A DNA stretch of 64,000 nucleotides, taken from the NCBI GenBank assembly GCA_001599975.1, contig BCIO01000005.1, positions 2,838,508 through 2,902,507 on the forward strand. Direction: 5' to 3'. A program made the position numbers and the translations under genes. Positions 4,451 through 61,731 of the stretch are shown here, piece after piece; positions within the stretch are counted from its first letter, which is position 1; every line of letters begins with the position of its first letter. Origin of the DNA: Cystobasidiopsis lactophilus. Its lineage: Eukaryota > Basidiomycota > Agaricostilbomycetes > Agaricostilbales > Chionosphaeraceae. Below the pieces are notes generated by a model, which had not been told where the DNA came from, made no database searches, and saw only the letters and a list, made by a program, of their open reading frames with translations.

Positions 4451-5980
4451 ATGGAAATGGAGCACGAGGAAGGCCAGGACGAGGGCTTGACCGCCGACGA
4501 CATCCTCGAGGTTATAGAGCAGGATGACATGGACCAAGACCAGCCAATGTCCGAGGACGAGGACGACGAGGCCGGCTTGGAGGAAGTGGAAGAAGAGTAC
4601 ACCGGCCCAGACACGTCCGTTGCCCACTTTGCGTCTCATTCATCTGCCAAGACACAACCTGTATACGCCGTCGCCGCCCATCCGAAGACACCGCTGATCG
4701 CAGCGTCGGGCGGGCAAGACGATTTTGCTTATATCTGGGCCACCGAATCGGGGCAAGAGCTGGTCAGGCTGACGGGCCACACCGACTCAGTGGTAGCCGT
4801 GCAGTTCTCGGCAGACGGCGAGCTGGTCGCTTCGGGCGGGATGGACGGCAGGATACGAATCTGGCGGCGGGTGCAGCAGCCCACAGCGTTCAACGAGCTG
4901 CAGCAGTGGGCCGCCTGGGAGTTCTTGACCAACTTGGAGGGCCCTTCAGAAGTCACGGTACGTCTAGGTGTCCTCTCATCTTGTCCTGTAGCACTTGTAC
5001 TGAAGTCGCCACCGGCTGATTACTCAGACCTTGGCATGGCACCCTCGAGGCTCAGTTCTTGCGGCAGGTTCTTCTGACGGAACCGTGTGGATGTGGAATT
5101 GTGAGAATTGCTCCTCTTTCTAGGGAGATTGCGTTCTCTGAACACAGGAGCGCCTGCAGTGCCAAGTGGTCAGCTCATGAGCATCTTTTCCGGGCATACC
5201 GCTTCGATCCAAGCACTCTCCTGGATATCGCCGTCGGAAGGCAAACGCCTGCTGTCCGTTTCCGAAAGCTCGGAGCTCTACATCTGGGAACCGAAAGACC
5301 CCTACTCTGCCCCGGCCGTCAAGTTCTCAGCGGCGGCGTCCGACCCCAGATTCGCGTTTGAAGGCGGCGTCACATCTCTGGCTGTTAACTCGGCGGGGAC
5401 TTTGGCGCTGGTCGGTGGAGCGCAGGACGCAGCGTTGAAGCTGGTCAATTTGGCGTCTGGTCACCTGGTATCAGCTCTCGCCGGCGGGCACAAAACTCTG
5501 TCTAGCATTGAAGCTTTGGCCTGGCTGGATTTGGTTCCCGCAAGTGGCACGGGTCTATGGCTATCAGGTGGAACAGATGGATCGGTCTGCGCTTGGGAGT
5601 CAACGACGGGCGCCCTGCGGTGGAAGGTGGAGCACCCGCAGCCGCCCCCAAAACCGTCTGTTCAATCGAATGGTACCGCTCCGACAAATGGCGAACAGCC
5701 AGCACCCTCGGCTATGGCTCAGCAAGGACCGGCTCCTGGCGAGGAGGAGGAAGAGCACTTTGCCATCTCGGCCATCGCCCTCCACCCTTCCAAGCTCCAC
5801 TTCACCTCTTCGGCAGCAGACGGCTCGCTCCGCACCTGGGAAGCCAAGTCCGGCCACTTGGTCAATGTTCATCCGGGCCATTCTAAAGCAATACACGCTT
5901 TGGCAATCACGCCGGATGGCCAGCTTGTCCTCTCAGGGTCGGACAACGGTTTGGTCAGAGTGCATAGAGCAGCACCTTAA
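4451..5980 (+). CDS. SQT1: SQT1/AAMP-like WD40 ribosome assembly chaperone
   Basis: A 469-residue WD40 protein matching yeast Sqt1 and animal AAMP. In yeast Sqt1 is the dedicated chaperone that holds newly made uL16 (Rpl10) before it joins the 60S subunit. Exons 4451-4957, 5028-5100 and 5151-5980 join in frame (169 codons, then phase 1); the last acceptor is the CAGGAG at 5141-5150, because the nearer CAG would create a stop. The first ~50 residues are strongly acidic (MEMEHEEGQDEGLTADDILE onward), as in Sqt1/AAMP, followed by propeller blades with GH and IW/WMW signatures (SGGMDGRIRIW, GSSDGTVWMW, SADGSLRTWEA). An insert rich in Pro, Gln and Glu lies between two late blades. The gene converges on RSA4, with 63 bp between stop codons. 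Confidence 0.9.
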
Positions 5981-6043: not shown

Positions 6044-7792
6044 TCAATGCCGCCAGATCCTGAGCTTTTGATCCCGGCCTGCAGATGCTACTTTGTCCGC
6101 CACAAAGTCCACGCAGTACACCTCGTCAGTGTGGCCGGGCAGGTCGACCTTGATTTTGAATGTCTTCAAGTCCCAAAGCTGCTCACCGCCGTCAGAACGC
6201 GCAGAAGAGCTAGATTGAGCCATGGCAAACCTTCAGCGTGGTGTCCTTTGAAGCAGAAACTAATAGCCTCGAGTCGCTCGACCAAGTCAGGCGGTAGACC
6301 GCGCCGACGTGGCCTCTTAGACTTGAGATGAACCTGATGCCCTAAGTGGTGAGCGTCAAGCGGACAATGCGTTTGATGACAGCCACTCACTTTCCAGTCT
6401 TGCCGTCCCACAGCTTGACGCAGTTGTCCCACCCGGCACTCGCGATCCACCTGCCATCCGGCGAGAAGGCCACATGCCCGACGATCTTTTGGTGGCCAGT
6501 CAGCCTCGCCACCGGCTTCTTGGGGTTCACGTTCTCCTTTGGGTGGAGCGGCGGCCAGAGGAAGAGCGTGTGGTCGTCCGAACCAGAGATGGCGGTCTCG
6601 GGGTTCCGCGCGGTGAAGGCCTGGTAGCGCTCGAGAGCCCGGGCTTGGGCTTCTTCGTCTGACGCCGGTCGCTTGGAGGTGTGATCGAAGGGACCGGTGC
6701 GGAGGATGAAGTCGGTGTTGAGCGCCAGGCTGTTGACCCAGTGGGCGTGCTCGGACAAGGTGCGGATGAGCTTGCCGGAGGTCGCGTCCCAGAGCTTGAC
6801 CGTGCGATCGTGTGAGGCCGTGTAGATGACGTTCTCGCCACCCCATCTGACAACACTGACAGCCTGTGTATGCCCTCCGAGCGTGAACTGGGTTTGCCGG
6901 ACCTTGGGCAGCCAGATTCGCACGGTGCCGTCCTTGCTCGAGGATGCCAACCTTGGGTTGGCCGCATTCCTAGCAGCAATGGCAAAGTCAGAATCTTCTC
7001 AGTATGAGAGAGAGAAGGCATCCTCACTGATGGATGGGCTCCCAGGCCAAGCTCATGATGTGCTTTGAGTGGCCACGGAGCGTGTCCCCGACTTGCTTGC
7101 CCGTTTTGGGGTCCCACAGCCTCACAGCGCCTTCTCTCCCGCCGGTAGCTATTAGCCTCTCCAAACCCTCCCACTCCACCGCCAAAACGTGATTCGTGTG
7201 GCCAGTCAGAGTCTGCGCGGGCGTTTCGGTGTTGAGGTCCCATATCCGCGCCGTGTTGTCCCCCGAACCAGTGACCAGGGAGCCTCCTGTTGGTGAAAAC
7301 GAAGCGCACAGAATGGCGGCGTTGTGTCCTGACCATTCGGACACATTTAGCCATCGCGAAGAAATTTTCGCGCAGAGCATGTGAAAAGCCAGACTCACCA
7401 TCAAGAGCGGAGGAACAGCGGGTGATCTCCCTGACTTTGAAGATGGCTTGCGGGGTGCATTGGACTTTCAAAACCTGTTCGGTGGACAGCAGGTCCGGGA
7501 ACTTCTCCAGCAGGTCCTGCAAGGAGGTGTCGACCGCCATCTCCCGGCCATCCTCGAGCACCAGGTGAAAGTTGAACGGCAAAGGGTCCTCAGTCGTTGA
7601 CTGCAGCGTGTTGGCCAGCAGCTCGAGAGATTTCAGGTCCGTCGTGGACGCCAGCGAGATGGGAGGGCCAATGGCAGCGGCGTCCTGCGAGGTGAACTGG
7701 ACAATGACGTTCTGCTCTGCCTTGGGCGCCTCCACGATGGTCGAGGAGCCAGTCTTCTGCCTCTTGGGCTTAGGAGGGATCAAGGTGGCCAT
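6044..7792 (-). CDS. RSA4: Notchless homologue RSA4/NLE1 (60S assembly)
   Basis: 503 residues in five exons (7792-7399, 7328-7028, 6969-6391, 6333-6231, 6178-6044), all phases consistent. The N-terminal NLE domain (about residues 15-120) carries VIVQFTSQDAA and the LLSTEQVLKVQC stretch just before the propeller; in yeast this ubiquitin-like domain is gripped by the AAA+ ATPase Rea1/midasin to strip factors from the pre-60S particle. WD40 blades follow (GSGDNTARIWDL, TGGREGAVRLWDPKTGK, SSSKDGTVRIW, ASHDRTVKLWD, SASKDTTLK, SAGRDQKLRIW). The start MATLIPPKPKRQKTG is chosen because it is the first Met and resembles the basic start of the family. It converges with SQT1, which acts in the same 60S pathway, and is divergent from CSE1. 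Confidence 0.93.
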
Positions 7793-7857
7793 TAGTGCGA
7801 CAAGCTCGGTGAACGCAAAGAGAGAAAATAATTTCTGTCGACGTCGACCGCGAAACA
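7793..7857. promoter_or_regulatory. 65-bp divergent promoter of RSA4 and CSE1
   Basis: Only 65 bp separate the two start codons, so promoters and 5' leaders must overlap. It contains a perfect 12-bp palindrome GTCGACGTCGAC at 7837-7848, ending 9 bp before the CSE1 ATG, and an A-rich stretch (AGAGAGAAAATAATTT) at about 7820-7835. Confidence 0.6.
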
Positions 7858-10800
7858 ATGGCGGAGCAGCAGCAACTCGCCCAGCTGTTGCAGGCTACGT
7901 TCAGCCCTCAAGCGGCTGAGCGCAAGACGGCAGAGCGGGCGCTCGGCGAGCTCGAGCTGTCCCCTGGCTTTGGCCTCTTGCCACTCCAGCTCAGCGCGAA
8001 CGATGCGGTGGACAGACCGATTCGCCAGGGTTCGCTGCTCTCGCTCTCTCTACCGCCCAGTCCAAGCTGACAAGACTGTCAACAGGCGCGGCTGTGCTGT
8101 TCAAGAACTTCATCAAGCGCAACTGGCGCCAGGTGAGCCGGCTTCTCATCAAAACATTCTCGCCTCGATTGACACGGTGTGCATTGGCAGGACGAGGACT
8201 CGGCGAGCACGCTGCAGTGGCGCGCAGAGGACAGGGTGGCCCTCAAGCAGCATGTCATCCCCACCATGATCAGCCTGGCCGCCTTCCCTAACCTCCAGAT
8301 TCAAATCGGCGAGGGCATCGCTCTCATGGCGGAAACCGACTTCCCTCAGGACTGGGGCGACCTGGTGGATGTGCGTCCCTTTACAACTGCTACTTTAATG
8401 CAGGAGCTCAAGGTGAATGTTGAGCACAGCAACTGATTGGCAACCTCTCGCCGGACAACTTCACCATCAACAATGCCGTCCTCCAAACAGCCCACTCTAT
8501 CTTCAAGCGGTTCGTCCTGCCTACGGTTATACCCTTATAAAGAGTGTATGCTAAATCCGACCACGCAACAGCTGGAGAAGCCAGTTCAGGTCGGACGGCC
8601 TGTTCCTCGAGATCAAGTTTGTGCTCGACCGCTTCTGCGCGCCTTACCTCCAAGTCTTCCAGCGCGTCGACGCCCTGCTCTCCTCCTCTTCCGCCTTGCC
8701 ATCTCCCTCCGACCCAAAAACGCTGGCCAAATCCCTCCTGCTCTGCCTCCAGCTCTTCTTCGACCTCAACTCGCAAGACATCCCAGAGTTCTTCGAGGAC
8801 AACCAGGCGCCTTTCATGGCCCTCTTGCACAAGTACCTCACTTGGACTGCTCCTGCCGAGCTGCTGACCGAGGAGGACGAGGAGGAGGCCGGAGAGGTTG
8901 AAAAGATCAAGGCGTCCATTTGCGAGATTGTCGAGCTCTACTCGCAGAGGTACCAGGACGTCTTTCCCCAGATGGACCAGTTTGTCGAGACGGTATGGAA
9001 GATGGTGACTTCCCTGTCCTCGGCCCAAAAGTACGACATTGTGCGTGTTCAATCTCCTTTTGATGAGAAGGATGGTCTGACCATGCCTTGTTTTGCGCAC
9101 AGTTGGTCAGCAAGGCGACCAAGTTCCTCTCGGTGGTCGTCAAAATGCCTCACAAGGAGAGCCTGTTCAGCAACCCGGCCATCCTCGAGCAGTTTTGCGA
9201 GAAGATCGTCCTGCCCAACATGGCGCTCCGGCCTTTCGAGGAGGAGATGTTCGAGGACGACCCGATGGAGTATTTGAGGAGAGATTTAGAAGGCACCGGT
9301 GCGTTTTCGTCTTTGGGATCTGGCAAGGCGCCCGAGCTGATCCTGTGAGGTGGCGAGCGCAGACTCCGAGACCAGGCGGCAAGCGGCGGCGGATTTCACG
9401 CAGGCGCTCATGCAGCAATACGAACAACAGACGACCGGCATCATCACCAAATACATCGCGTCCTACCTGGGCCAGTACGCAGCGAGCCCGCAAGCCAACT
9501 GGCAGGCCAAGGACACGGCCATCTTCCTGCTCACCTCCATCGCCTCGCGCTCTTCCACCTCCACCCTCGGCGTCACCAGCACCAACGCGCTGGTCGACAT
9601 CGTCCGCTTCTTCTCCGAGCATGTGGTCGGCGAGCTCCAGAGCACCTCGGCACATCCCATCATCCAGGCCGACGCCATCAAATTCCTCTATACCTTTAGA
9701 TCTCAAGTGCGTCTTGGCCTTTGTCAGCTTCTACCTTAGTCAATTCTGAATCTATCGTTTCCACAGCTTTCAAAAGACCAGCTGCTCGCCGTTCTGCCTT
9801 TGCTCATCCCGCACCTCGAGTCCGACAGCTTCGTCATACACACCTACGCGGCAATGACCATCGAGCGTGTTCTCTTTGTCAAGAGGGACGGCAAGCTTTT
9901 GTAGGCTCCTCCCTCCCCTTTGCCGTCCCGCCCACCCTGTTCTCACTTTGACTCGGCGGATCTACAGGCTAACGCAGCACGATGTGCGACCGTTTGCCGA
10001 GCAAATCCTGGTCGCGCTGCTCAAGAAGATCGAGAGCGGGGGCACGCCGGAGAAGATTGCGGCCAACGACCACCTCATGAAGTGTCAGTCTCGAGCTTGC
10101 CGTTCTCAGCTTCTGACAAAACTGATCGTTCTTTTCGAGACTCTCAGGCGTCATGCGCGTCATTATCACGGCCAAGCAAACCCTCGCTTCGGATTATGCG
10201 ACCATCCTCCACCATTTGGTCGCCATCTTGACAGAAGTCAGCAAAAACCCTTCAAACCCAAAGTTCAACCACTTTGCGTTCGAGTCCATGTCCGCTCTTA
10301 TCAGGTCAGCTTTTGCAGCTTTTGCGTGATCGAAGAGCCGCTTCTTACGAATCCAAATGCCTGAGCAGATTCGTGGTGGCCGGCAACCCTGCCACGCTGG
10401 CCGAGTTCGAGAGCAGCCTGTTCCCTCCTTTCACCTACATCCTCCAGCAAGACGTCCAAGAGTTCTCGCCCTTCGTCTTCCAGATCCTCTCCCAGCTCCT
10501 GGAGCTGCACCACGAAAACACACTGCCGGACGCCTACCGCGGCCTGGTCGGGCCGCTGCTCATGGGCGCCCTGTGGGCCAACGCCGGCAACGTGCCCGCT
10601 TTGGTCAGACTCTTCCGAGCCATCTTGTCCAAGGGCAGCCAGACTCTGGTCGAGAACAAGCAGCTGGGCAGCCTCAAAGACATCGTCCGCTTCTTGGTCG
10701 AGTCCACAGGCCGAAAGCACGACGCCGTGAGCACAGATTTGGTAGAAGCGATCTGGGAATCCGTTCCTGCGTGCGTCTTTTTGTCTTTTGACTCTGCTTC

Positions 10801-40925: not shown

Positions 40926-41989
40926 ATGTCTTCTAGCTGGAGCTCATGGCTGTTTGGAAAGTCTTCAGGTGGCGGCAGCCGGGATAGGTGCGCCCAGCGG
41001 CTCGTTCGCACCGGGAGACAAGAAGCCAGTTCTGACGAGGCGCCAATTCAGGGCCGTCGATGCGATCATCAAGCTGCGCCAGCACTTGCTGCTACTGGAG
41101 AAGAACGAGGAGCACTTGAACAAGAAGATAGAGGACGAGGTGGCCAAGGCCAAAGCGAATGCTACCACCAACAAGCGAGGTAAACGCCTCCCCATTTGCC
41201 CCTTGGGCCCGGCCGAGCTCATTGCTGGGCAAACTAGCGGCCCTCAATGCGCTGCGCCAGAAGAAGAACTATGAGCAGCAGCTGGACCAGCTCGCCGGCC
41301 GGCGGCTCACGCTGGAGACGCAGGTGAGCGCGAGTCTTGGGCCGTGGTGATGATGTGGCGGAGCTCAGCGGGTGCGTTCACTCTAGGTCAATGCTCTGGA
41401 GGCCGCCAACATGAACATGGAGACGATGCTGGCCATGAAGGAAGGTGCCTCAGTCCTCAAGAAGATTCACGGCAACCTGTGCGTTGGCCCTTATCTCCTT
41501 CCTATCACCCTCGCCACACCAAAGCTGACGCGGCCGTTGCTGGTTTTCACAGCAACATCGACAAGGTGGATGCCACCATGGAGAGCATCCGCGAGCAGAT
41601 GGACCTCACCGACGAAATCTCGAACGCCATTTCCAACCCAGTTGGCATCGGTCACGAGGTGCGCTTGCTTGCTCGGGCTCTATTGCCCTGCGCGTCGACT
41701 GCACGCATCGAACTGATTCGCATGGCAATCTGACAGATGGACGAGGACGAGCTCAAGGCCGAGCTCGACGAGTTAGAGCAGGAGCAGCTGGACGAGAGGC
41801 TAGCCGGCGCGCACTCTGTTCCCTTGACCAGCCCATCGCGCGTGGACCCAGGTAAGCATCCTCTCTGCGTTCTTGCTGTGCCCGTCCATATCTGAATCGA
41901 CATCGCGACCAGTGCGCATGCAGCCTTCGCGGGAAGAAGCCGACGAAGAAGAGGAGCTCCGGAAGCTTCAAGCCGAGCTGGCGGCTTGA
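40926..41989 (+). CDS. SNF7: SNF7/VPS32 (CHMP4), ESCRT-III subunit
   Basis: Main polymer-forming subunit of ESCRT-III, which cuts membrane necks in multivesicular body formation. Seven exons give 222 residues with no phase conflict: 40926-40968, 41030-41179, 41238-41323, 41387-41478, 41553-41658, 41737-41851, 41913-41989. The N-terminus MSSSWSSWLFGKSS joins VLTRRQFRAVDAIIKL over a 61-nt intron. Core helices follow: LRQHLLLLEKNEEHLNKKIE, KKNYEQQLDQLAGRRLTLE, ANMNMETMLAMKEGASVLKK and the acidic helix MDLTDEISNAIS. The C-terminal acidic helix (DEDELKAELDELEQEQLDER) and the end ELRKLQAELAA fit the Vps4/Bro1-binding tail. Length and charge pattern match the family. Confidence 0.94.
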
Positions 41990-42540
41990 TCCGCACTTGG
42001 ACTTCCTCTCGCCACCACCGCCACCACGACCCTCTCACCGCCAGTCTCTTTTCGCGCCGCAGCTCGGCACTTGCTGCCTGCGGCTCTTTGTCGCTTCATC
42101 TCAATCGCTGTGGTTCTTCGATTCTTTCCTTCCGACCCTGTGGCTTTGGCTTTAGGCCTGCAGAAACGTGGCAGCCACTTCTTCAAGGGATGCTAGGTCT
42201 ACCGGCTCGCGTGAGGTGCGGCTTGAATTCGTCGTCGTGTTCCAAGGGCTGTTTAGTCCTCCCATCCCTCCACCCGGCCCGACCTTACCACTCGATGCTT
42301 TGTATAATGTAAAACCTTCCACACGTCAATATCCAGAACCATTACCCCTCGCCAACGTGAATGAGTTGGGGGGACGAACTCTTTCTTCGGTTTTGTCGAA
42401 GCTCCACCATCTTGCCACCACACACTGCGACAGACCACAAGGGTGTGAGCTGTGCAAGCAATCCATCTGCATAAAAAGAACGAGCTCGGCTCCAGAGGGC
42501 AAGCGCAAGCGACGGACGGGATCTCCCAAGAGAAATCGCC
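41990..42540. other. Intergenic, 551 bp
   Basis: Between SNF7 and RPB12 on the same strand. Contains the SNF7 3' end and the RPB12 promoter; no gene or repeat recognised. Confidence 0.5.
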
Positions 42541-42987
42541 ATGAATTCGGGCAGCACATACGGCGGCGTGGGCGCCAATGCCGACCCAGCCGCTTCAGCC
42601 AGTCGCACCGCGTTCAGTGAACTCTCGACCGATGCCCAGACTGGCGAGAAACCGCAGTACCTCTGCGCTGGTGCGCCTCAGCCTTGGTGTGGATTTTGAT
42701 GAGCGCTTTGCTAACGCCGGCAGCTGCCCCTCAGACTGCGGCACCACAAACCAGATCAAGCCTAAGGAAGCCATTCGCTGCAATGACTGCGGCTGCCGCA
42801 TCCTTTACAAGAAGCGAGTCAAACGAAGTGAGTCGGGATGTCCCAATTTTTTTTCGAGGTGCAGTCATCTCACGCAATTGCTTGGTGTGCTGCAGTCGTA
42901 AGTGCCCAATACAGTTTCTGAAGTGTGCTCTAGTGCACGAGGCTAAGACCACGAATCTTTTGCCAGCTCCAATTCGAGGCTCGGTAG
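42541..42987 (+). CDS. RPB12: RNA polymerase I/II/III shared subunit RPB12 (RPABC4)
   Basis: Small zinc-binding subunit common to all three nuclear RNA polymerases, 81 residues. Exon 1 (42541-42670) gives a Ser/Ala-rich head and KPQYLCA; exon 2 (42735-42827) gives DCGTTNQIKPKEAIRCNDCG and CRILYKKRVKR. The four zinc Cys (CADC, CNDC) are all present. The universal ending of the family is KKR-x-KR-(M/V)-(V/L)-QFEAR. To reach the QFEAR at 42970-42984 in frame, a 2-nt exon (TC, 42896-42897) must be inserted; it sits between TGCTGCAG and GTAAGT. The last exon is 42967-42987. The rebuilt tail, RILQFEAR, has exactly the family length. Without the microexon the frame misses QFEAR. The identity is firm; the microexon is inferred. 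Confidence 0.9.
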
Positions 42988-43189
42988 CGCCACCAAGACG
43001 AGGGCCTCAATGTACAACTCCTTGTAATACAACCCTTGGCTCTTCCAGCTCTCTCACTTCACCTCACCAAGGATCTTTGACTTGCCCTTTAATCCGCCGA
43101 CCTTCTGGGAGCACAGGAGACGCCAGGGCCTCTGACGGGAGTACATTCCAAGTCGGTGGCAAAAGAGCAAACAGTGGCGCACGCTCCAT

Positions 43190-45907
43190 TCATGGTCCGT
43201 CCTGCTTGACCCGCTTCGCTTCCAACTCCTCCGCCTCTTGAGCGGGACGCTTGTTGATGCGCTGAAAGCCGGCCTTGCGCGGGGTGCTGCTGCCCGGCTC
43301 GGGCGTGCCTACAGCCGATGATGAGCCAGTGGAGAGGCCAGGCGGGGCGCTCAATGTTGGCGTGAGGTTGATCTCCGCTGGGGCAGCCTTGCCTTTGCCC
43401 TTCTTGCCCTTGGCGGCTTTTGAGGGGTCCAGAGTGGACGTAGTCTGGAAGTCTTCAAAGCCAGGCGCGGTCCTGTTCCCAACGCCACTCAGCATCGGTC
43501 CAAACGGGACTTGAGCACACCGGGGACTGACATCTTGTTGCCCACGCTGAGCACCATGGTCGCGCTGCCCAGCTTTTCCTGTCGAGCTTGAAAAGCCGCG
43601 TTGGTAGACAGCGGCGTATCTCCGGAAGCCATGGCTTGCTGTGTGAGGCGCGCGAATCAGCTCTGGGATCCAGGGCGAGCTAGACGGGCCCACCTTCTTC
43701 TTCTCCTCTGCGATCTTGCGCAAGCGCTTCTCTTGGGCCTTGACGCCGCTGCCCTTGCCATGGAAGCGGTGGGATAAGTGCCTGCGCAAAACAAGATCGT
43801 CAGCCATAAGGATCCGCCATGCAAGCAGAAAAGACTCTACTTACTTCCAGGCCTCCTTGGGTGTCATCTCCCGCCCCAACTCATCGTTGTACTTGATGTC
43901 GATGGTAGGGTTGTAGGTCTTGAAGTGCTCCAGCTCGCGCGACGCCTGGTCCTTTTCGCGCTGCCGGTTTTCGAGCTCGCGCGTGCGCTGGTCTTTGGAG
44001 CTGCCGGCCGCCTTAGATGCAGCCCGGTCTTCCTGCAGTCGTTTGTCGTCTGCGCGCCGGCTCGCCAGCCAAGCCTGCCGCTGTTTGTAGTCCGCATCCT
44101 TCTTCCGCTCGTCGTCGGTCAGCGGCTTCAAAAGGCCCTGTTGTCGAAGCATGGCCAGCGTGCTGCCCAAGCCACGATTGACGAGCAGCTCGCCAGCGGT
44201 GCCATCGACGAAGGCGTCCGGGTCAGCTTTGGCGTCCTCCAGTGGCATCTCCTCGTTGGCTTCCTCTTCAGCCCCGACCCCGTCGACGTCCATTTCAGCC
44301 AAAGGCTGGTCCTCCTCTGCCACCGGTTCCTCTTGCTTGACGGGCGGCCGTTGCTCCGTCGGCGCAGCGGAGGGCGGGGCACGGGCAGAGGTGAGCGGCT
44401 GGGCGGTGATGCCGCGCACAAACTCAGCCGTTTGGTCCAAAACCAGGCCGCCCCCTTCTTCGTCGCTGTCGTCGTCTTCTTGCTTCACGTCGGGCGCGCC
44501 GTTGTCGGCGCCATCAGTGGGCGACCGCGAAGCTTCGGCCTCGGCGCCTGGATGATGAGCGCCGTGAGCTCGCAAGACACAGGCTTCGGCACTTGAAAGC
44601 AACGCACCGTCATCCCTGAGCCGCTTGATGGCTTCCACCGCTTTTCTGGCTTTCGCGCGCCGCTGACGGGCGAGCGCCGCCTGCAGCTCCTCGTCATCGC
44701 GCACCGCTTGGTCCTCTAGCTCGAGCTGGCTGGTGCGCGGCAGCCCATCCACAAGCATGCCGCTGGGCGCGGCTTCTCCGTCGTCGTCGTCGTTCCCCGC
44801 GCGCCGAGCTGCGCCGCCCTTGTCCTTTCGCTTCTTCTTCTGTGGGCCAAAACCGTAGTAAGAGCCCGAATGACCTAACCATGGCAGCTGATCCAGACGC
44901 ACCTTGGGCTTCTTGAAACCGGCGTCGCCTTCCTGCAGGTAGTCCGAGACCTCGAGGCTCTCTGTGGGGAACGGACTGAGTGAGGCGACCGGAGGGGAGC
45001 GTGGAAGCAGGGCCTCACTCTCGTAGTTGAGATTGGCCAAGGTCCTTGTCAGCTCTTTGGCCACTTCTTGCTTGGCTTCCGCGGAGCGAACGACGGGCTG
45101 CGCCACTGCCTGGTACCCAGCAGCCGCCTCGCTGGCCTCGTCGCCACCCAGCCTGAAGCCGGCCGCGCTCTCCCGTTCTTTCGCGTCCTTGATGTCGACG
45201 TCGTATTTAGACAGCACGCCCTTCCTGGCGCCCACCTCGCCAAATTCGTCGTCATCGAGGCCTGTGTACTTGCCGGCCTGCCGCCCAGCCTTCTTGAGGG
45301 CGAGCCGCTCCTCCAAGCGCTCCTGGTCGGCCATGTTGACGTTGATGAGCTCGTCGTCGTCGCCGTCGAGGATGCGCGAGTCCTTGAGGGTCAAGATCGC
45401 CTCTTCGTCCTGGAAGCTGTCCAAGTCGTGCCCGACTTTTAAGCCCGCCAGGTCCTTTGAGCCGTAAGTAGCGGCCAGCTCTTGCTCCAGCTCGGCCAGC
45501 TCGCGCGCCTTTCGCTTCGCCAGATCGGCCGCCACTTCTTTGGCCCTCTTCTTTTGCTTCTTGGCCCAACTCTTGGCGTCCTCATCGCCCTCGCCCTCAC
45601 CCAAACCCTTGCCGGACAGCTTCGCCTTGAGGTCGCGCTGGGTTTGGGCCTTCTCCAGTCGGGCCTTCAACGCAGAGGTCTCTTTGTCGAGATCCTCTTT
45701 AGCTCGCTGCTGACGGAAGTTCTCCAAGGCGATATCCTCTTCTGTCTGAACGGGGCCGCTAGTGGAGGGGTCTGCCAAAGGAGCCAGCCCCATCGCCACC
45801 CGCAGCTTGCTGCTCGGACTCGATGAGCAGCCGTTCGCTGTGAAATGGAGCAAGGAAGCAACGCACTTTGTCTCTTCCAGCGAGATGGACTCGTTGTTGG
45901 TCGTCAT
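43190..45907 (-). CDS. SNU66: SNU66/SART1, U4/U6.U5 tri-snRNP protein
   Basis: Tri-snRNP factor needed for spliceosome activation. Start at 45907 (MTTNNESISLEETN) joins over an intron to KLRVAMGLAPL, giving the family opening SLEETNKLRVAMGLAPL. The rest is a long, highly charged, largely helical protein: DIALENFRQQRAKEDLDKET, KSWAKKQKKRAKEVAADLAK, INVNMADQERLE, GARKGVLSKYDVDIKDAK, and the C-terminal hallmarks EGGGLVLDQTAEFVRGI, FKTYNPTIDIKYNDELGREM and FHGKGSGVKAQEKR. The final exons include MASGDTPLSTNAAFQARQEK and KRVKQDGP. An acidic, Glu-rich insert with PVKQEEP motifs lies around residues 470-560. No enzymatic domain is expected. Almost the whole opposite strand is also open, which is a composition effect. 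Confidence 0.93.
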
Positions 45908-46587
45908 CTTGGGCGCAGAGCACTCCACTAGGGACCAGGTGGGAGAGCTGCTGGTCTACAAGAAGTGCCGGGTCGTCGGAGCCCGTTGGATTTTGATCTG
46001 CCGTCAGACTGGCTGGCGCTGCTCTTTGGGCACCAGCTTTGGTGACAGGCGAACCAGAAGAGGGCTTGGTGCTTCACGCAGAGAGACAAAGAGGCTCGTC
46101 GTCGACGCGGCCGTTTCTGTCCAAGATGAGTCGACGCACACTTTCTCGCTCCAACGGCGGAGCGAGGTCAACTCTTGGTTCCACCTTTGCTGCCCGGTGC
46201 GGTTCCAACTTTGCTGTTCTGCTCAGGATTGCCGCAGACTTAAGGATGTATCGAACAAACAGAGCCTGAAAACCACGGGCGCCTGAAGCCCCTTCCCAGG
46301 CGGAGCTGCCAGCGACAGCAGCCCTCTTGGACGGACGCCCATCACAACATCCTATCACGAACCTCGGGAGCAGCAGAGAACAGCTGGTCAAGCTTTAAGT
46401 CAAGCCCTGATCGCCCAATACCCCGAGAAGCTCGCCAATCGGTCTGAGACACGAAGCCCGCCGCTCAAGGACGGGCCTCCCAGGTCGGAAATAAACAAGG
46501 GCAGCCCCTTGTTCGACCCAGCGTAAGTTCTATGTGCAAAGCGCATAATGGGCCCGCAAGCTTACTGGCCGCTGAGCCAGGCATGCG
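45908..46587. other. Divergent interval SNU66/SWI1 with possible upstream SWI1 exons
   Basis: 680 bp between the assigned start codons. On the plus strand, a frame open from about 46283 to 46521 ends at a perfect GTAAGT donor and joins in phase, through the acceptor GAGCCAG at 46574-46580, to the SWI1 reading frame. A further upstream exon beginning with ATG at 46126 (MSRRTLSRSNGGARS) can be joined at 46201/46300. These may be 5' coding exons or a spliced leader. Confidence 0.5.
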
Positions 46588-49449
46588 ATGGCAATGAACG
46601 GCCACCACGGCTACAATGCCCCCTTCTCGCCGGTCCACCGCCCAGGGTCCGCGATGGCTGGATCTCCAGCTTTATCTCAAAACTCCATGAACTCGCCGAT
46701 TCATGCCGAATATGCGAACAGCCCTTCCTATTCGCCCCATCTACGCCAGGGCTCAAACCCCTACGCCCAAAGCCCGCAACAGCCCCAACCAAGCCAGCGA
46801 CCTAGTCCAGCTCAATTGCTTGCTCTCTTCAATGATCCGGTCGCCTTCAACAATTTCCTGCGCCTCCAGCCTCTAGATCAGCAAGAAGGAATTCGCAGAA
46901 TGCAGGCGCACTACCTATCCCAAGCGCAAGCGCAACAACAAGCAACTGGTGCCAATCTACCTCGCCCCCAATCAGCCACCAGCAGCAGCGCTGCGACGCC
47001 CCGTCAAATGTCTTTCCCACCGCAGCCGGCCGCGACCGATTCGCCCACATTTGCTCCCTCGCCTCTGGGGGCCCGAGGTTCCATGCCGCCGCCGCCTGGG
47101 TCCGCAACGGCCAATCAGCCAGCCTCACGCCCTTCAGCGCCGCACGACTTGTTCATGCAAAAGCTGGCGGAGCATTTGGCTTCGGCGGGCACGCCTCTTC
47201 AAACGCTACCCCTCATCGAAGGCCGCGTCGTCGACCTCCCTCGCCTGTTCCAACTTGTGACTTCTTTAGGCGGCTTCAACAGCCCGGCTCTCCAGCTGCG
47301 CCACTGGGACGGCATCCTGCGCGCCCTGAACTTTCTGCCGTTGGAGGACGGGCAACAACCTCCAGGACGGCGCGCTGCCATTCAAGAAGTCTACCAGCGT
47401 GTCTTGCTCTCCTTCGAGTTATTTTTGAAAGAGCAATCGCAAGCTCGCTCTGCACACCAGCAGCAGGTTGGCCCAAATGCAGCCGGCACTCCGGCTGCCT
47501 CGCTCCACCACCAACCCACGACGCCAGCCGCAGCTTCTGCGCCGCAGCCAATCGCCGCCCAAGCCCCGCCAGTGCCCTTGTCCAGCCAGATCGCAGCCGC
47601 CTCGTCGCAAGCGTCGCCGCAAAGTCCGCACCTCGCTCTGCAGAACTCGGCCCGCGTACCGCCAAAGCCGCTCCCAGAGGCGCCGAAGAGCGGCAAAGTG
47701 GCCACTCCCAGGTCTATGGCAATGGCTCCGCAAGGCCCGCCGGCTCGAGGTGAGCGCCGCTCCCACCGTTCGCACTGGGATTCTGACAGGCCTGGGCAGC
47801 TGAAGAAAACGCCACTGTCAACGCCACGGCGTCTTCCTCTTCGCTCCCGAGCTCTCCAAAGAAGGAGGACGAGGCCGCCAAACCAGTCATTGGGATCGCA
47901 CCTCCCAAGCGCAAGCGCCAGCGGATCGAGTACATCCCGCTTAGCCGGCCAATGGACACCTTTGGCGGGATTGACCGCGGTACCGTCCGAAACACGATAG
48001 ACAATCTGTGGCAGCGGCGCCCGCCGAAAACCATCTTAGATCTCGGTGCGTGGCGTCCGTTGGTGACACATGGCCGCCGGCGCCCTTGTTGACAGAGCTG
48101 GTGCAGGCACCATCGACATTTACACGCTAACGCTTGGACTGCGCAGCGGCATTGCCTCTGAGCAGACGTACGCCCTCAACGCCGTGAACTTGATTGCCCA
48201 GGCGACCCGGACAGAGAGCTTTGACACCCGCTTCGGGCTCGATGTCAACGTCTACAACAGCGTTCTGGATGGCCTGTTCGACCTGCTCGAGGACACGGCT
48301 TTCCCCCAAGGCACCGCGGCCGGCAAGCGCCCTCGCGCCCCCAAAACCTGCCGGGAGCTTGCTCGGCTCGCTGCGGAGCGCAAGCGCAAGTTTCAGTCTT
48401 ACCGGTCCAGCCAGAAGCCCGACTTGCTGCTGCCGTCCCAGATTATCCTCAACATAGTCAACACCCTCCGAACCTTGGCGCTCTCGCTGCTCCCAACGCC
48501 GACCGGTGAGCAGCAGCAGCCGGTCGCCACCTGGTTCGTGCGCCAGCCCAAACTGGTCGACCTGCTCTTGCGCTTGTGCGACTTTGGTACTGGCGACGCC
48601 GTCCAAGAAGAGCGTAGCCAGCGCTCGCCGGTCCACCTCACCTTCAGCGACCTGCTCACGGTTCGCAAGGATGTTGTCACCATCTTGGCCGAGGCCGCCG
48701 TCTATCTCGACCTCCAGCACTTGCCGTCGACGTCAGCGAGCGCGGTGGTGGACCTCGTCCTCTTCTTCTTGCTGGACCCAGTGGACGAAACTGACGCGCG
48801 ATCGGAAGCGGCCGACACCAAGAGGCCGAACGCGCGGCTGGGCGACATTGGGACATGCACTGCGGCAGCCATCAGCCTACTCGTGTCTGGAGCAGCGAGC
48901 GACAGCAACAGAGAGGTGCTCGCGTCGAGTCGGTCCGCTGCCGAGTTGTACGGCCTGTGGGAGGCCCTCGTCCGCTTCCTGCCCCTGGACGACGAAGAGC
49001 TGGGAGCCTTTTTATCGCCCGACGTCACGCTCGCCGAGCGCATCAGCTTTGCGCTGTACAACATCGCGTTCATGGCGTCCGCGGAAGTTCGCGCCCGCAT
49101 CCGCCACCGTTCACCGTTCCCCCAAATCATTCTGCGCATGCTGCTGCGCTTCGCCACGTTCCAGCCGCAAAAGGCTTCGCAGCTCCACATCTTCGCCACC
49201 CGCAGCCTCGAGACTCTCCAGCTGCTCGTGTCTTCCGACGACGACGAGGCGGCGCAAGACACGCTGGACCCCAACGCCCCCTTCTTCGGTGGCTCCTTTG
49301 CCGTGCCAGCGGACCTCGAGGCCACAGAAGCCCACTCGCGGCCCTTGCGGTCCACCCTCGCAACCGACGAACGAGCGCTGCTCGGCTTGCTCTCTTCGAG
49401 GGCGTTTGACAAGGACTTGTACTCGTTACTGGACAGGCTGTTTGGATAG
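46588..49449 (+). CDS. SWI1: SWI1/ARID1-like subunit of SWI/SNF chromatin remodeller
   Basis: ARID-domain subunit of SWI/SNF. The conservative start is Met 46588 (MAMNGHHGYNAPFSPVHRPG). The N-terminal third is rich in Pro, Gln, Ser and Ala, as in all Swi1/ARID1 proteins. The ARID lies at about residues 185-275: DLFMQKLAEHLASAGTPLQT, GRVVDLPRLFQLVTSLGGF, then ILRALNFLP and AIQEVYQRVLLSFELFL. A basic block PPKRKRQRIEYIPLSRPMDT follows, and the C-terminal BAF250-type helical domain starts at TIDIYTLTLGLRSGIASEQT, with LNAVNLIAQATRTESF and YNSVLDGLFDLLED, ending SLLDRLFG. Introns at about 47749-47798 and 48045-48113. The CDS may begin further upstream by 100 or so codons. Confidence 0.88.
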
Positions 49450-56947: not shown

Positions 56948-59900
56948 TCAAGCGACCCGCGCAATGATCTTTACGGCAGGCATCCACGCAGTCAAGTTGT
57001 CGCCAGGGGGACCGGACGTCAGGAGGCGTAAATGGAGGTCGAGGGCAAGGTCAGGGTTGTGAGCTTCGACGGCTGGGAGCACGGGCACCTCTGAGCTTTC
57101 GTCGCTGGCTTCGCTAATTGAACCAAAATTGCATACCTTGCACAAGCTCGTGCAGCGACGCAATGGTGGATTTGGACAGCGTTTCGCAGTTAAGAGCGTC
57201 AAACAGCACGTTAAGACGTCGTTCGGTGTCGTCGACCATCTTCTTTTGTTGTGGCTGCGCATCTAGAGGATTAGCGATAGAGCTGAATGGAGCAGGTAGA
57301 GGGGGACCGAACAGGAGTGTTTTGTCGTATGACTTGCACACGTTGGTGCAAGACCTCGTAAATGATGCGGTTCTCGTCAGGAATGTGCGACCGGTCACCG
57401 GCAGCTGATACACCGCCAGTCAGTGGGGTCGGCGATGCAGCTGCGAGAGCCAAAGTGACTCACGGTATTTGGGCTTGGCCGGTTCCGGTTTGGGAGTCGG
57501 TTTGGGGGCAGGAGCCGATTGTTGCGGCGCTCCAGGACCAAACCGCCCGGGCGGGCCGTTCATTGCCTGGGGAGGACCTGCTGAGCGTGCTGCAGGGCCC
57601 TGGCCGCTTGTAGCAGGGTCATAGGGCGAAGCTGCACCGGGAGGCGGCGCGTATTGTCCCGGCGCGGCATGTGGCCCGTTCGGGGCATATCCGCCGCCGG
57701 CTGGCCCATACTGAGACTGTGCTGGCGAAGGGGGTGGGGGCACAAAGTTTGAGGTGCCCGAAGTGCTGCCCGCTCGCCCGGGAGCCGGAGGTGGCGGCGA
57801 CATGGCGGACCGCATCGAAGGCGGCGGCGGCATATTGTGACCGGCCGGCGATGCCGTAGCGCCTCTGCTGGGTGGCGGTGCTACACCAAACTGGCCGCCA
57901 GCAGGTACAGGGGGGACAGGCGCGTTGGGAAATGGCGAAGTGAGGGCGCTGCGGTTGGCGGCTGCAGATGCAGTCCGCTTTGGAGGCGGAAGGCTCGGGG
58001 CGTCGTTCCAGCCTTGATCTGTGCGCTTGGGGGGAGGTGGGTTTGAAGACGGAGGCGGCGGGAACTGGCCATTCGGCGCCTCTTGGCCCAGCACGACCGG
58101 CGCTTGCGGAACAAAGGACGGATTGGGTGGCGGCACGCCATAAGGGTTCGGTTGCTGCACACTTCGCGAAAGGGGCGGCTGTGGAGGTGCTGGCGGAGCA
58201 TAAGGCATCGACTGGCTTGCAGCGGGAGCATATGGCTGGGCTGGTTGCGAAAAGTTGCTGCTCGGCGTTGCGGCCGCGTAGGGGCCTGCTTGAGGCGGAA
58301 GTGCGTACGGGTTGGCGGCTGCGGGTGCAGATGCGAAGCCGGTTTGGCCGCCTGGCGGGACAAATGCTCCAGCCGTGGGTGGCCCATAGGTGCCCGGCTG
58401 GACAGCCGGCTGCGCTGGCTGGCTGGAAGCATAAGGCGCGTAGGCAGGTGCTTTGATGGGCTGAGCCGAGTTCGGGAGAGCTCCTCGGGCTTTGGGCTTC
58501 TGCGCCTTGGAGGTCGCCTGCTGCAGCCTTTCCTTGACAAAGCTGGCTCGCGAGGTGGTGCCGCCATAGTCGGTCGGAATTTTGGAAGCGTAGCGCAGAG
58601 CCAGCGTGACCAAGCCTTGGGCGGCAAGAAGCTCAGCGTACTCGCTGTACCTGTCGTAAAGGGACGCCAGCTTGTAAGTCCGAGCGCCCGACTGCGCAAC
58701 GGCAGCAGAGTTGGTCGGTTGAGATAAGTCGGCGTCTGCGTAGTTTGTAGCGCTTTGGAAGATGGCGACCTTTTCGATGAAGCCCTGCAAGGCGCTGGCG
58801 TGGGCCGAGTAGGGCGGGGATTGGTCGGCGGCTTCCTCCTCCCGCATCTCCTCAGACCAGATGCCCACCACCTTTTCCAGCTTTCCAGCTGCTAAGTAGC
58901 AGAGCACGGCGTTCTTGCGCAGGTCGAGGGTGGACATGGCCTGCTCCGCCCTTTTGGTCATGGTCGATTGGAATTCGAGGCGCTGTCCCAGTTGCTCAAC
59001 CAGGCTGGCAAACTCCTCTTTCTTGGCGAAGGTGCACAGGACCACAAAGATCTCTTGCCACTCGGAGATGTCGGCGTTCTGGACGATGTCGGACAAGTCG
59101 TCGGACACGATGGACTGAAAAAGGCGCAGGTAGGGCAGGTGGCGAGTTTGGCGCTCAAAATAAGCCTTTTGCGTCTGGGCCAGGAGCTCTGGGCCGCCGC
59201 GCACCGCCAGAAGCAGGGCATCTGCGAAGCGGTCCGCCGACATGCACAGCGAGACGGCGCTGGCGAAGTCGCCCAAGATCAGGGCGCGTGTGATCAGGCG
59301 ATCTGCATCCGACTCATCGGAAGGGTAGATCTTGAACGTATTGCCCTTAAGTTGATCAGCCGAGGCGATGGACGAGGGCCGAGAGCCAATGGTGGCCGCA
59401 ACGGAGGATTGCTCCTCTGGCTTGAACAGATGGTCTGGCAGGGCGGCAGGGCGTCCGTGAGAAATGGAGTTGTAGAAGTCAGCCGCTGCCTGGTTGGGGT
59501 TATTGGCAGCGTTGACGCCGTCGTCCAGGTTGGTGTCACCCCACAAGCTCGGCTCCGTGGTCTCGGACTCCGTGCTCGCCCCTAGCTTGGTGCTGTCAGA
59601 GACGTTGCTGACGCTGGCTTCGGATGGCGCAACACGAGATGAGGCCGCCGCAGCTTCCCCTTCGCTCGAGGCCGAGAGCCCGTCGACCGGTGTGTCGGCA
59701 AATGTGACCAATGGCTCGCGAGCGACCGAGCCATCCTCGGAACCCGCTGCCAGCCTCCCGTCACTTGAGGATCGAGTCAAACGGGCGCGCTCCTTGAAGG
59801 TGCGAATAGCCTCGTCGACCTTCGACTTGACCTCGTCTTTCGAAAAGCCGAGCAGGGAGACGAGCTCATCTCTTGTGTCGGCATGGAAGAGAGTGGCAAG

Positions 59901-61731
59901 CAAATGCCACGAAGAAAGATCCGCCTTTGCCCCGTCCAAGGTGTTCTGGCCACTAGACAGCTGCTGGGCGCGTTCGTCGGCAAAGGCTTGCAGCGCTTTA
60001 GCGTCGGCCGCGGTTTCCAGCTTCAGCGCGCGCTCGACAACGTTGGCCTCGCTGACGACTTGGTGAATCTTGACACCGAAGTGGCTGGGCGCGGCCGCTT
60101 TGTTCAAAGAGACGAGCTTGCCGCCAAAGCCAAACACGGCTGAGACTGGGCGCTTCAGCCACTTTGGCGCCTGTGAGAGGGTGACGGCAGGGTAGCTCTG
60201 GACATTGAGGTTGCCCTGCTCGAAGATATCGGCCCCACTGGGCTGCTCGGCCTGCAGCTCCGACTGAGAGCGAGTGGACTGCAACGGGTGAATGTCGATC
60301 TTTCCGTCGAACGACGAGACAGCCACGAGATCTGGCAACGATGGAGACCAGTTGCACTCGAAAGCCCAGTTGGTGCTCCGCGACAGCTGTGACGCGCTGA
60401 GCAAAACTCATTGCCCACACGTTGCAAGACTCAGCTCACCTCGCCGACCATCTTGCCCGAGTTGGGATTCCAGCAGATGCTGCGCGAGTCTTTGCCGCAG
60501 CTGATCAAGAGATCGGAGTCGGTTTGGCACCAGTCCATGCTGAGGATGCCCTTCTCGTGGCCGGACAAGATCTGCAAGCACCCAGGTAAGACCTCGGTGT
60601 CCGGCAAAACAGAGGTGAAGACACGGACCTTTTCAGGGGCCCGAGGGTTTCTCAGATCCCAGACCATCACAACGGGGCTCATGTCGTCCTCAGACGCCGT
60701 CGCGATCTTGGTCGGCTGTGGACAAACGCTTGAAGGTCAGAGCAACTCTCGCCAACAACGAATGCGCCTCACGTTGTCGGGATGCCAGGCCACGCTGCTG
60801 ATGCCTCGCCGTCCGCCTTGCTGTGGGCCCATCCATTGCTGATTGGGCATCGCGTTCATGCCGGGCTGGCCAGCGGCGCTGGCGGCGTTGAGGGCGACGA
60901 CCTCCCGCTTGCCTTTGAGATCCCACACAACGGTGTAGCCGGAGGAGGACGAGGTGGCCAAGATGTGGGACACTTGGCGGTTCCAGGCGAGGGACGTGAT
61001 GTCCTCAAGGTTGCGCGAACGGGTGCCGGGCGAATAGGGCTTCTGGGGCGTGTTAAGGTCCCACACCCAGATCTGCTGGACGAACGTGATGAGCAATTGA
61101 TAATCACCTTCCGAGTCGAGGGCCTGCCTCTCCATTGGTGGCGCCAGTGGCTAAGACGTGGCTTTGTGCCACGTTGAAGTCCAATCCTCGGACTGGGCCG
61201 TTGTGCTGCTGGTTTTTCCATACCAAGGCGCTGAATGAGCGCGCATGAGCGACTGGGCGCCCTCCATGCACACGCAGAAGACCAGGACGTACCTCTCGCC
61301 CGCTCCCTCGACAATCTTGGCCGGGTCCCAAATTCCGAGCTCCCCGTTCTCCATGCCGGCCGCCAAGACACCCATCGGGTGCTCTGATGTCTTAGTGTAG
61401 CTCCAAGCAAGTCGGTTGAACCTGCCGAAGCGCCCGTGGTTAACTGGTGCCGCCATCACAAGCCGGGCAAGTCGCGCTCGCACGGCCTGCCTGGGCAGCT
61501 GCAAAGCCCTCACCTGGTTGTGCACGTCACGCTACCAATGACTTGAGCTTCAGTTGAGAGCGCTTCGGCCGCGGTGTTCTTTCCAAAGGGGTCCCAGACC
61601 TCGAGCTTGGACTCGTTGGAGAAGGATTCGTCCAAAGCGCCCGCGACAGTACCGGTCGCGAGCAGAGGCCGCCCAGCCCCTTGGGGCGACCATGAGAAGG
61701 TAGCCGAACGAGACAGGCTCGCTTTGACCAT
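56948..61731 (-). CDS. SEC31: COPII outer coat protein SEC31
   Basis: Forms the outer cage of ER-to-Golgi COPII vesicles with Sec13. Start [20 protein letters not shown] at 61731, typical of Sec31. The N-terminal WD40 propeller follows: [117 protein letters not shown]. Next is the ancestral coatomer element domain ([60 protein letters not shown]). A long Pro/Gln/Gly-rich region (about residues 1000-1300; [15 protein letters not shown] onward) binds Sec23 and is encoded mostly in one exon, 60404-57420. The C-terminal helical domain includes [40 protein letters not shown] and the end [10 protein letters not shown]. All parts are present. Confidence 0.95.

Follow-up and report, generated by a model that had tools for sequence, protein, structure and literature searches.

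A probable two-nucleotide exon in a fungal RPB12 gene

The RPB12 gene and its surroundings

The window, the whole stretch of DNA analysed (64000 bases, 585 of them N), carries an RPB12 gene at 42541-42987 on the plus strand, and the region 41800-44200 around this gene contains 0 N. As shown in Table 1, the gene was modeled with four exons and three introns. The first-pass annotation had ended exon 2 in phase 1 at 42827 and started the QFEAR exon in phase 0 at 42967, in agreement with this model. The joined coding sequence of 246 nt yields a protein of 81 amino acids with the C-terminus KKRVKRILQFEAR. The junction formed by removal of intron 1 reads YLCADCG and aligns without gaps to 3h0g, the best RPB12 row in the PDB. 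The zinc-ribbon profile PF03604 scored 54.5 bits on the protein, its cut-off being 24; this profile has 32 positions, and the RPB12 tail is outside its reach. DUF5816, the second Pfam family on the protein, remained under its own cut-off. The gene product is RPB12 (RPABC4), a zinc-ribbon subunit common to RNA polymerases I, II, and III and essential in yeast.

Table 1. Exons and introns of the RPB12 gene in the window, and the uL3 microexon found elsewhere in the assembly
Feature	Position	Strand	Description
RPB12 exon 1	42541..42670	+	130 nt; ATG start; ends in phase 1, ...QYLCA plus one base
RPB12 intron 1	42671..42734	+	64 nt; GTGCGC...CCTCAG; branch-site-like CTAAC at 42711-42715
RPB12 exon 2	42735..42827	+	93 nt; zinc ribbon up to KKRVKR plus base A; Pfam PF03604 match
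RPB12 intron 2	42828..42895	+	68 nt; GTGAGT...CTGCAG; branch-site-like CTCAC at 42869-42873
RPB12 microexon TC (putative)	42896..42897	+	2 nt; bases 2 and 3 of the ATC Ile codon
RPB12 intron 3	42898..42966	+	69 nt; GTAAGT...TGCCAG; candidate branch sites CTAAG at 42943-42947 and CTGAA at 42918-42922
RPB12 terminal exon	42967..42987	+	21 nt; LQFEAR-stop; starts in phase 0 after TTTTGCCAG
uL3 11-nt microexon	L032:2080-2090 (G000 contig C2, near 1.28 Mb)	-	flanked by introns of 58 and 59 nt

The assembly comprises 22.1 Mb in 8 contigs. PF03604 exceeded its cut-off at a single place, the RPB12 locus, and the other place listed genome-wide was below it (E 0.085). Therefore, no intact second RPB12 copy was found in the 22.1 Mb. 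When relatives of RPB12 were sought in the viral and prokaryote contigs of IMG/VR and GTDB, 110 and 593 stretches, respectively, matched the peptide pattern, and none of them passed tblastn. 5.8S rRNA had no match in the assembly, from which the rDNA may be missing.

Several further genes were recognized in the window. A SART-1 family gene, presumably encoding a tri-snRNP splicing factor, lies convergent to RPB12 (43841-45928, minus strand), and an ORF with an ARID/BRIGHT DNA-binding domain is located at 46588-48000 (plus strand). A SEC31-like coat protein with a Pfam Sec16/Sec23-binding domain, whose best PDB match is SEC31, is encoded at 57420-60404 (minus strand). An ORF with WD40 repeats occupies 5108-5980 (plus strand), and an NLE-domain ORF is found on the opposite strand at 6527-7858.

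The TC dinucleotide and the C-terminal tail

Exon 2 and the terminal exon of RPB12 are two bases out of phase with each other. The dinucleotide TC, which sits between CTGCAG and GTAAGT, can fill this deficit, the A at 42827 plus TC forming ATC (Ile). We consider it highly probable (approximately 0.9) that TC is a constitutive 2-nt exon of RPB12 flanked by two short GT-AG introns of the ordinary U2 type, and its inclusion in the mature mRNA is predicted from the genomic sequence. The mature message would then read AAACGA-A-TC-CTCCAATTC, with GTCAAACGA upstream of CTCCAATTC. When TC is skipped and 42827 is joined directly to 42967, the protein continues as ...KRTPIRGSV... and QFEAR is lost; retention of intron 2, intron 3, or both likewise abolishes LQFEAR each time. 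Canonical GT-AG introns are complete on either side of TC, and the frame of a conserved protein depends on it.

The tail was then compared with known RPB12 proteins. Of the 12 eukaryotic RPB12 rows that the PDB provides, 11 match the last 23 residues of the TC-containing protein with their exact C-terminal 23; the rows are not independent, since several repeat one yeast or mammalian protein in different versions. The alignment with the 12th row, 5x4z, covers 20 residues, and the match of the tail to an archaeal Rpo12 is weak. All five of the printed RPB12 alignments are gap-free, and the residue of the microexon codon is I here versus M, V, V, L, and L in those rows. These alignments bear out the earlier proposal that TC supplies both the two missing bases and the family length. 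The tail is basic and has a QFEAR-like end at the fixed distance from the last CxxC when TC is included, a length that 0 of the 19 other parses gives.

Those parses came from an enumeration in which exon 1 and intron 1 were fixed, one or two GT-AG introns of at least 45 nt each were allowed (donors at 42770-42959, acceptors at 42840-42989), and the protein had to end in FEAR. Among the 20 parses obtained, only the one with TC combines the family length with sites that all fall within the range of real introns. Its site scores (5.8, 7.0, 8.4, and 3.4) are all positive; the runner-up parses, ranked by their weakest site, reach at most 0.8 and carry intron-derived residues. The first-pass annotation had called the TC exon required, and it is indeed the sole enumerated canonical solution that keeps both the conserved tail and its length.

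Splice-site quality, chance expectation, and competing explanations

Splice matrices were trained on 36 introns of no more than 95 nt identified de novo in 264 kb (the window plus L012-L031), 0 of them from RPB12; this set may include false introns, and some look doubtful. Relative to the 36, the intron-2 acceptor stands at the 67th percentile, the intron-3 donor at the 56th, the intron-2 donor at the 28th, and the intron-3 acceptor at the 6th. TC had been described as lying between two strong sites; the CTGCAG and GTAAGT flanks are present as described, but at the 67th and 56th percentiles they are typical rather than strong. The four sites flanking TC are inside the score spread of the training introns and of seven homology-supported introns of the uL3 gene (donors 3.1-9.3, acceptors 3.4-7.6). 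In intron 2, CTCAC is placed 24 nt from the end, and CTNAY motifs were seen in 27 of 44 short introns versus 6 of at most 44 exonic controls. Two features of intron 3 speak against the TC exon. Its acceptor scores low (6th percentile among the 36), and its branch-like motifs are limited to CTAAG or CTGAA, of which CTAAG, the nearest, occurs in 2 of the 44 short introns. In the uL3 comparison, one intron has an equally weak acceptor (3.4), and CTAAG is the sole such motif in 2 of 7.

The 68- and 69-nt introns had been taken as normal in size, and this holds: 33 of 82 de novo intron clusters measure 50-70 nt, the short mode of the genome, as do all seven uL3 introns that were read (50-68 nt). 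Another 30 of the 82 clusters are at least 139 nt long, many of them probably spurious (introns up to 300 nt were allowed), and this noisy distribution gives no verdict on an intron of 139 nt.

To estimate chance expectation, the 139-nt gap was shuffled by dinucleotides with its first 6 and last 14 bases fixed. A 2-nt exon whose sites together matched or exceeded the observed combined score arose in 18 of 20,000 shuffles, and an exon of any length equal to 2 modulo 3, from 2 to 29 nt, in 87 of 20,000. Among 74,161 overlapping genomic 139-mers (264 kb, both strands), 21 reached the score, representing three distinct sites with RPB12 included. Counting both strands of the 22.1 Mb, there are 8 exact matches to the 11-mer YAGTCGTAAGT. 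Genome-wide enrichment of YAG-NN-GTRAGT was not found, 381 places being counted against 697 for the reversed control, or about half; since the motif is rarer than its control, the count gives no indication that such site pairs abound in the genome. When the 264 kb were scanned blindly for exons of 1 to 15 nt bounded by good sites, 75 candidates emerged, 6 of them of 2 nt. Nothing is claimed for these candidates because their coding-context scores failed to separate real from chance, giving no support even to RPB12, whose terminal exon is just 21 nt.

The putative RPB12 microexon is not alone in this genome, as the uL3 gene (L032, minus strand) shows with a second case, one gene rather than a survey. 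It needs an 11-nt exon to produce LDRPGSKMHKK, and without these 11 nt the protein is frame-shifted. Seven introns of 50-68 nt were identified in the part of the gene that was read, and the spliced product is gap-free over 359 of 360 residues against 8oo0, the best PDB uL3. The best matches were 8oo0/7olc, 7r81, and 8esq (which we take to be Chaetomium, Neurospora, and fission yeast, respectively), followed by other yeasts, with plants and animals lower. From this ranking we take the organism to be a fungus, a placement that was the sole reason for analyzing uL3.

The phase mismatch might be bridged by a single intron in place of two. An intron with a non-canonical border, either GA-AG (42830-42966), giving KRVKR-S-LQFEAR, or GT-CC (42828-42964), giving KRVKR-K-LQFEAR, preserves both the frame and the family length. 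However, Ser or Lys would then occupy a hydrophobic position, where the RPB12 rows shown carry M, V, or L, and the well-flanked TC with its two normal-sized introns would be left as a coincidence of the rarity met in the shuffles (18 of 20,000). Neither GA-AG nor GT-CC is a standard spliceosomal border pair, which also counts against them, and we regard such an intron as very unlikely. Among the single GT-AG introns enumerated, the one running from the weak donor GTCAAA (42818) to 42966 preserves LQFEAR without intron-derived residues and gives YKKR-LQFEAR in frame. Nevertheless, the tail becomes four residues shorter than the 23 on which 11 of the 12 RPB12 rows agree exactly, and the donor scores -6.1, compared with 4.1 at the 5th percentile of the training set; this intron is extremely unlikely. 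These single introns were rejected on the grounds of the donor score and the four lost residues in the one case and of the Ser or Lys at the hydrophobic position in the others.

The mismatch could also be an artifact of a small indel within either exon 2 or the terminal exon, in which case one intron of about 139 nt would suffice and the microexon would be unnecessary. The very large contigs (8 for 22 Mb) presumably reflect a long-read assembly, a type that can carry indels. On the other hand, both exons are free of long homopolymers near the junctions, the eight uL3 exons that were read join into one open frame, and the properly flanked TC would again have to lie at the right offset by coincidence, so that an assembly error is judged highly improbable. 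A stwintron, in which one intron is nested in another and the whole 139 nt are removed with no exon between, has precedent in fungi, where nested pairs of short introns with successive removal have been described in the passages available. Here, the loss of all 139 nt leads to a frame-shifted tail (TPIRGSV...) that lacks LQFEAR. Moreover, intron 2 is preceded by A, so that no [D1,2] donor (G then T) re-forms over the junction. The interval was not assigned to the stwintrons, which leave no exon remnant, because its complete removal breaks the frame, and this explanation is hardly credible.

Order of intron removal, related systems, and meaning

For the 2-nt exon, the intron-2 acceptor and the intron-3 donor, being 2 nt apart, could presumably not be bound by spliceosomes simultaneously, so that introns 2 and 3 would be removed successively. 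Under intron definition, each may be recognized separately, with one removed first. If intron 2 leaves first, intron 3 would find a good donor at the junction AATC|GTAAGT, an arrangement resembling a recursive splice site that carries a 2-nt exon. On the matrix, the intron-3 donor improves from 6.4 to 7.4 once intron 2 is gone, while in the opposite order the intron-2 acceptor changes from 7.0 to 7.3. Since the donor gains more than the acceptor, removal of intron 2 before intron 3 is weakly favored.

Exons this tiny are known, and they are rare. The 2-nt exon had been placed among the smallest known; this stands, although 1-nt exons have already been published for APC11, VPS55, and Fusarium CYP621A. 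In the portions of these papers available to us, the 1-nt exon of Arabidopsis APC11 was examined with minigene tests (PMC4674806), 1-nt exons of APC11 and VPS55 are reported across land plants, VPS55 with conserved GTRAGT donors (PMC8831610), and the 1-nt exon of Fusarium CYP621A has RNA reads and is, per its authors, the first in a fungal gene (PMC12940212). Exon lengths are quoted from two nucleotides up in a passage of PMC8042270, and the small-exon survey of Volfovsky 2003 is cited by both PMC12940212 and PMC8042270. As far as these passages go, a 2-nt exon is therefore not a new kind of exon. None of the titles and abstract beginnings among the matches listed names a 2-nt exon in RPB12. 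In the passages found, the stwintron paper PMC5639578 has none on microexons, and the review of non-canonical splicing PMC13149111 mentions no exons below 3 nt.

According to the available text, Fusarium CYP621A is a close parallel (PMC12940212). It is fungal, its exon was revealed by a phase mismatch in a conserved motif, and the exon restores both motif and length; the apparent intron of F. graminearum CYP621A is 139 nt, the same as the RPB12 gap. In contrast, the RPB12 exon has 2 nt instead of 1 and belongs to a polymerase subunit instead of a P450, and the CYP621A exon has 18 RNA reads and at least 20 orthologues behind it (PMC12940212), whereas that of RPB12 is predicted from the genomic sequence. 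As in the plant genes APC11 (PMC4674806) and VPS55 (PMC8831610), an ultra-small exon is required for the frame of a conserved protein, and as in VPS55 a GTRAGT donor directly follows it (PMC8831610). Unlike that of RPB12, the plant exons were shown experimentally, and the Arabidopsis APC11 interval is far longer, with 422 nt assigned to the intron (PMC4674806, PMC8831610). Passages on fungal stwintrons likewise describe short introns back to back and consecutive removal reactions, but there the outer intron has one of its splice elements split by the internal one and nothing exonic is left, whereas in RPB12 two coding bases would be kept and both introns have complete sites (PMC5639578, PMC9024468). 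Recursive splice sites, or ratchet points, share the nearly adjoining acceptor and donor and the stepwise removal; in the part of PMC8605326 available they are mostly a feature of long introns and as a rule contribute no sequence to the mRNA, in contrast to the 2 nt kept and the introns below 70 nt in RPB12.

A broader scenario, which we consider unlikely, is that fixed-order removal of the two introns around the 2-nt exon is required for RPB12, a core subunit shared by the three nuclear RNA polymerases. Since failure would give a frame-shifted or cut tail, the supply of RPB12 would be linked to splicing capacity; this layout may be conserved throughout the fungal lineage concerned, and microexons in core genes, as also in uL3, may be common. 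In view of the essential role of RPB12 in yeast, mis-splicing should not be tolerated. An annotation pipeline unable to model a 2-nt exon would report a wrong or truncated RPB12 tail. If spliced as proposed, TC would be among the smallest exons proposed in a fungal gene, beside the 1-nt exon of Fusarium P450s, and RPB12 would offer a clean natural substrate for how the spliceosome handles sites 2 nt apart in short introns, with respect to both intron definition and the order of removal.
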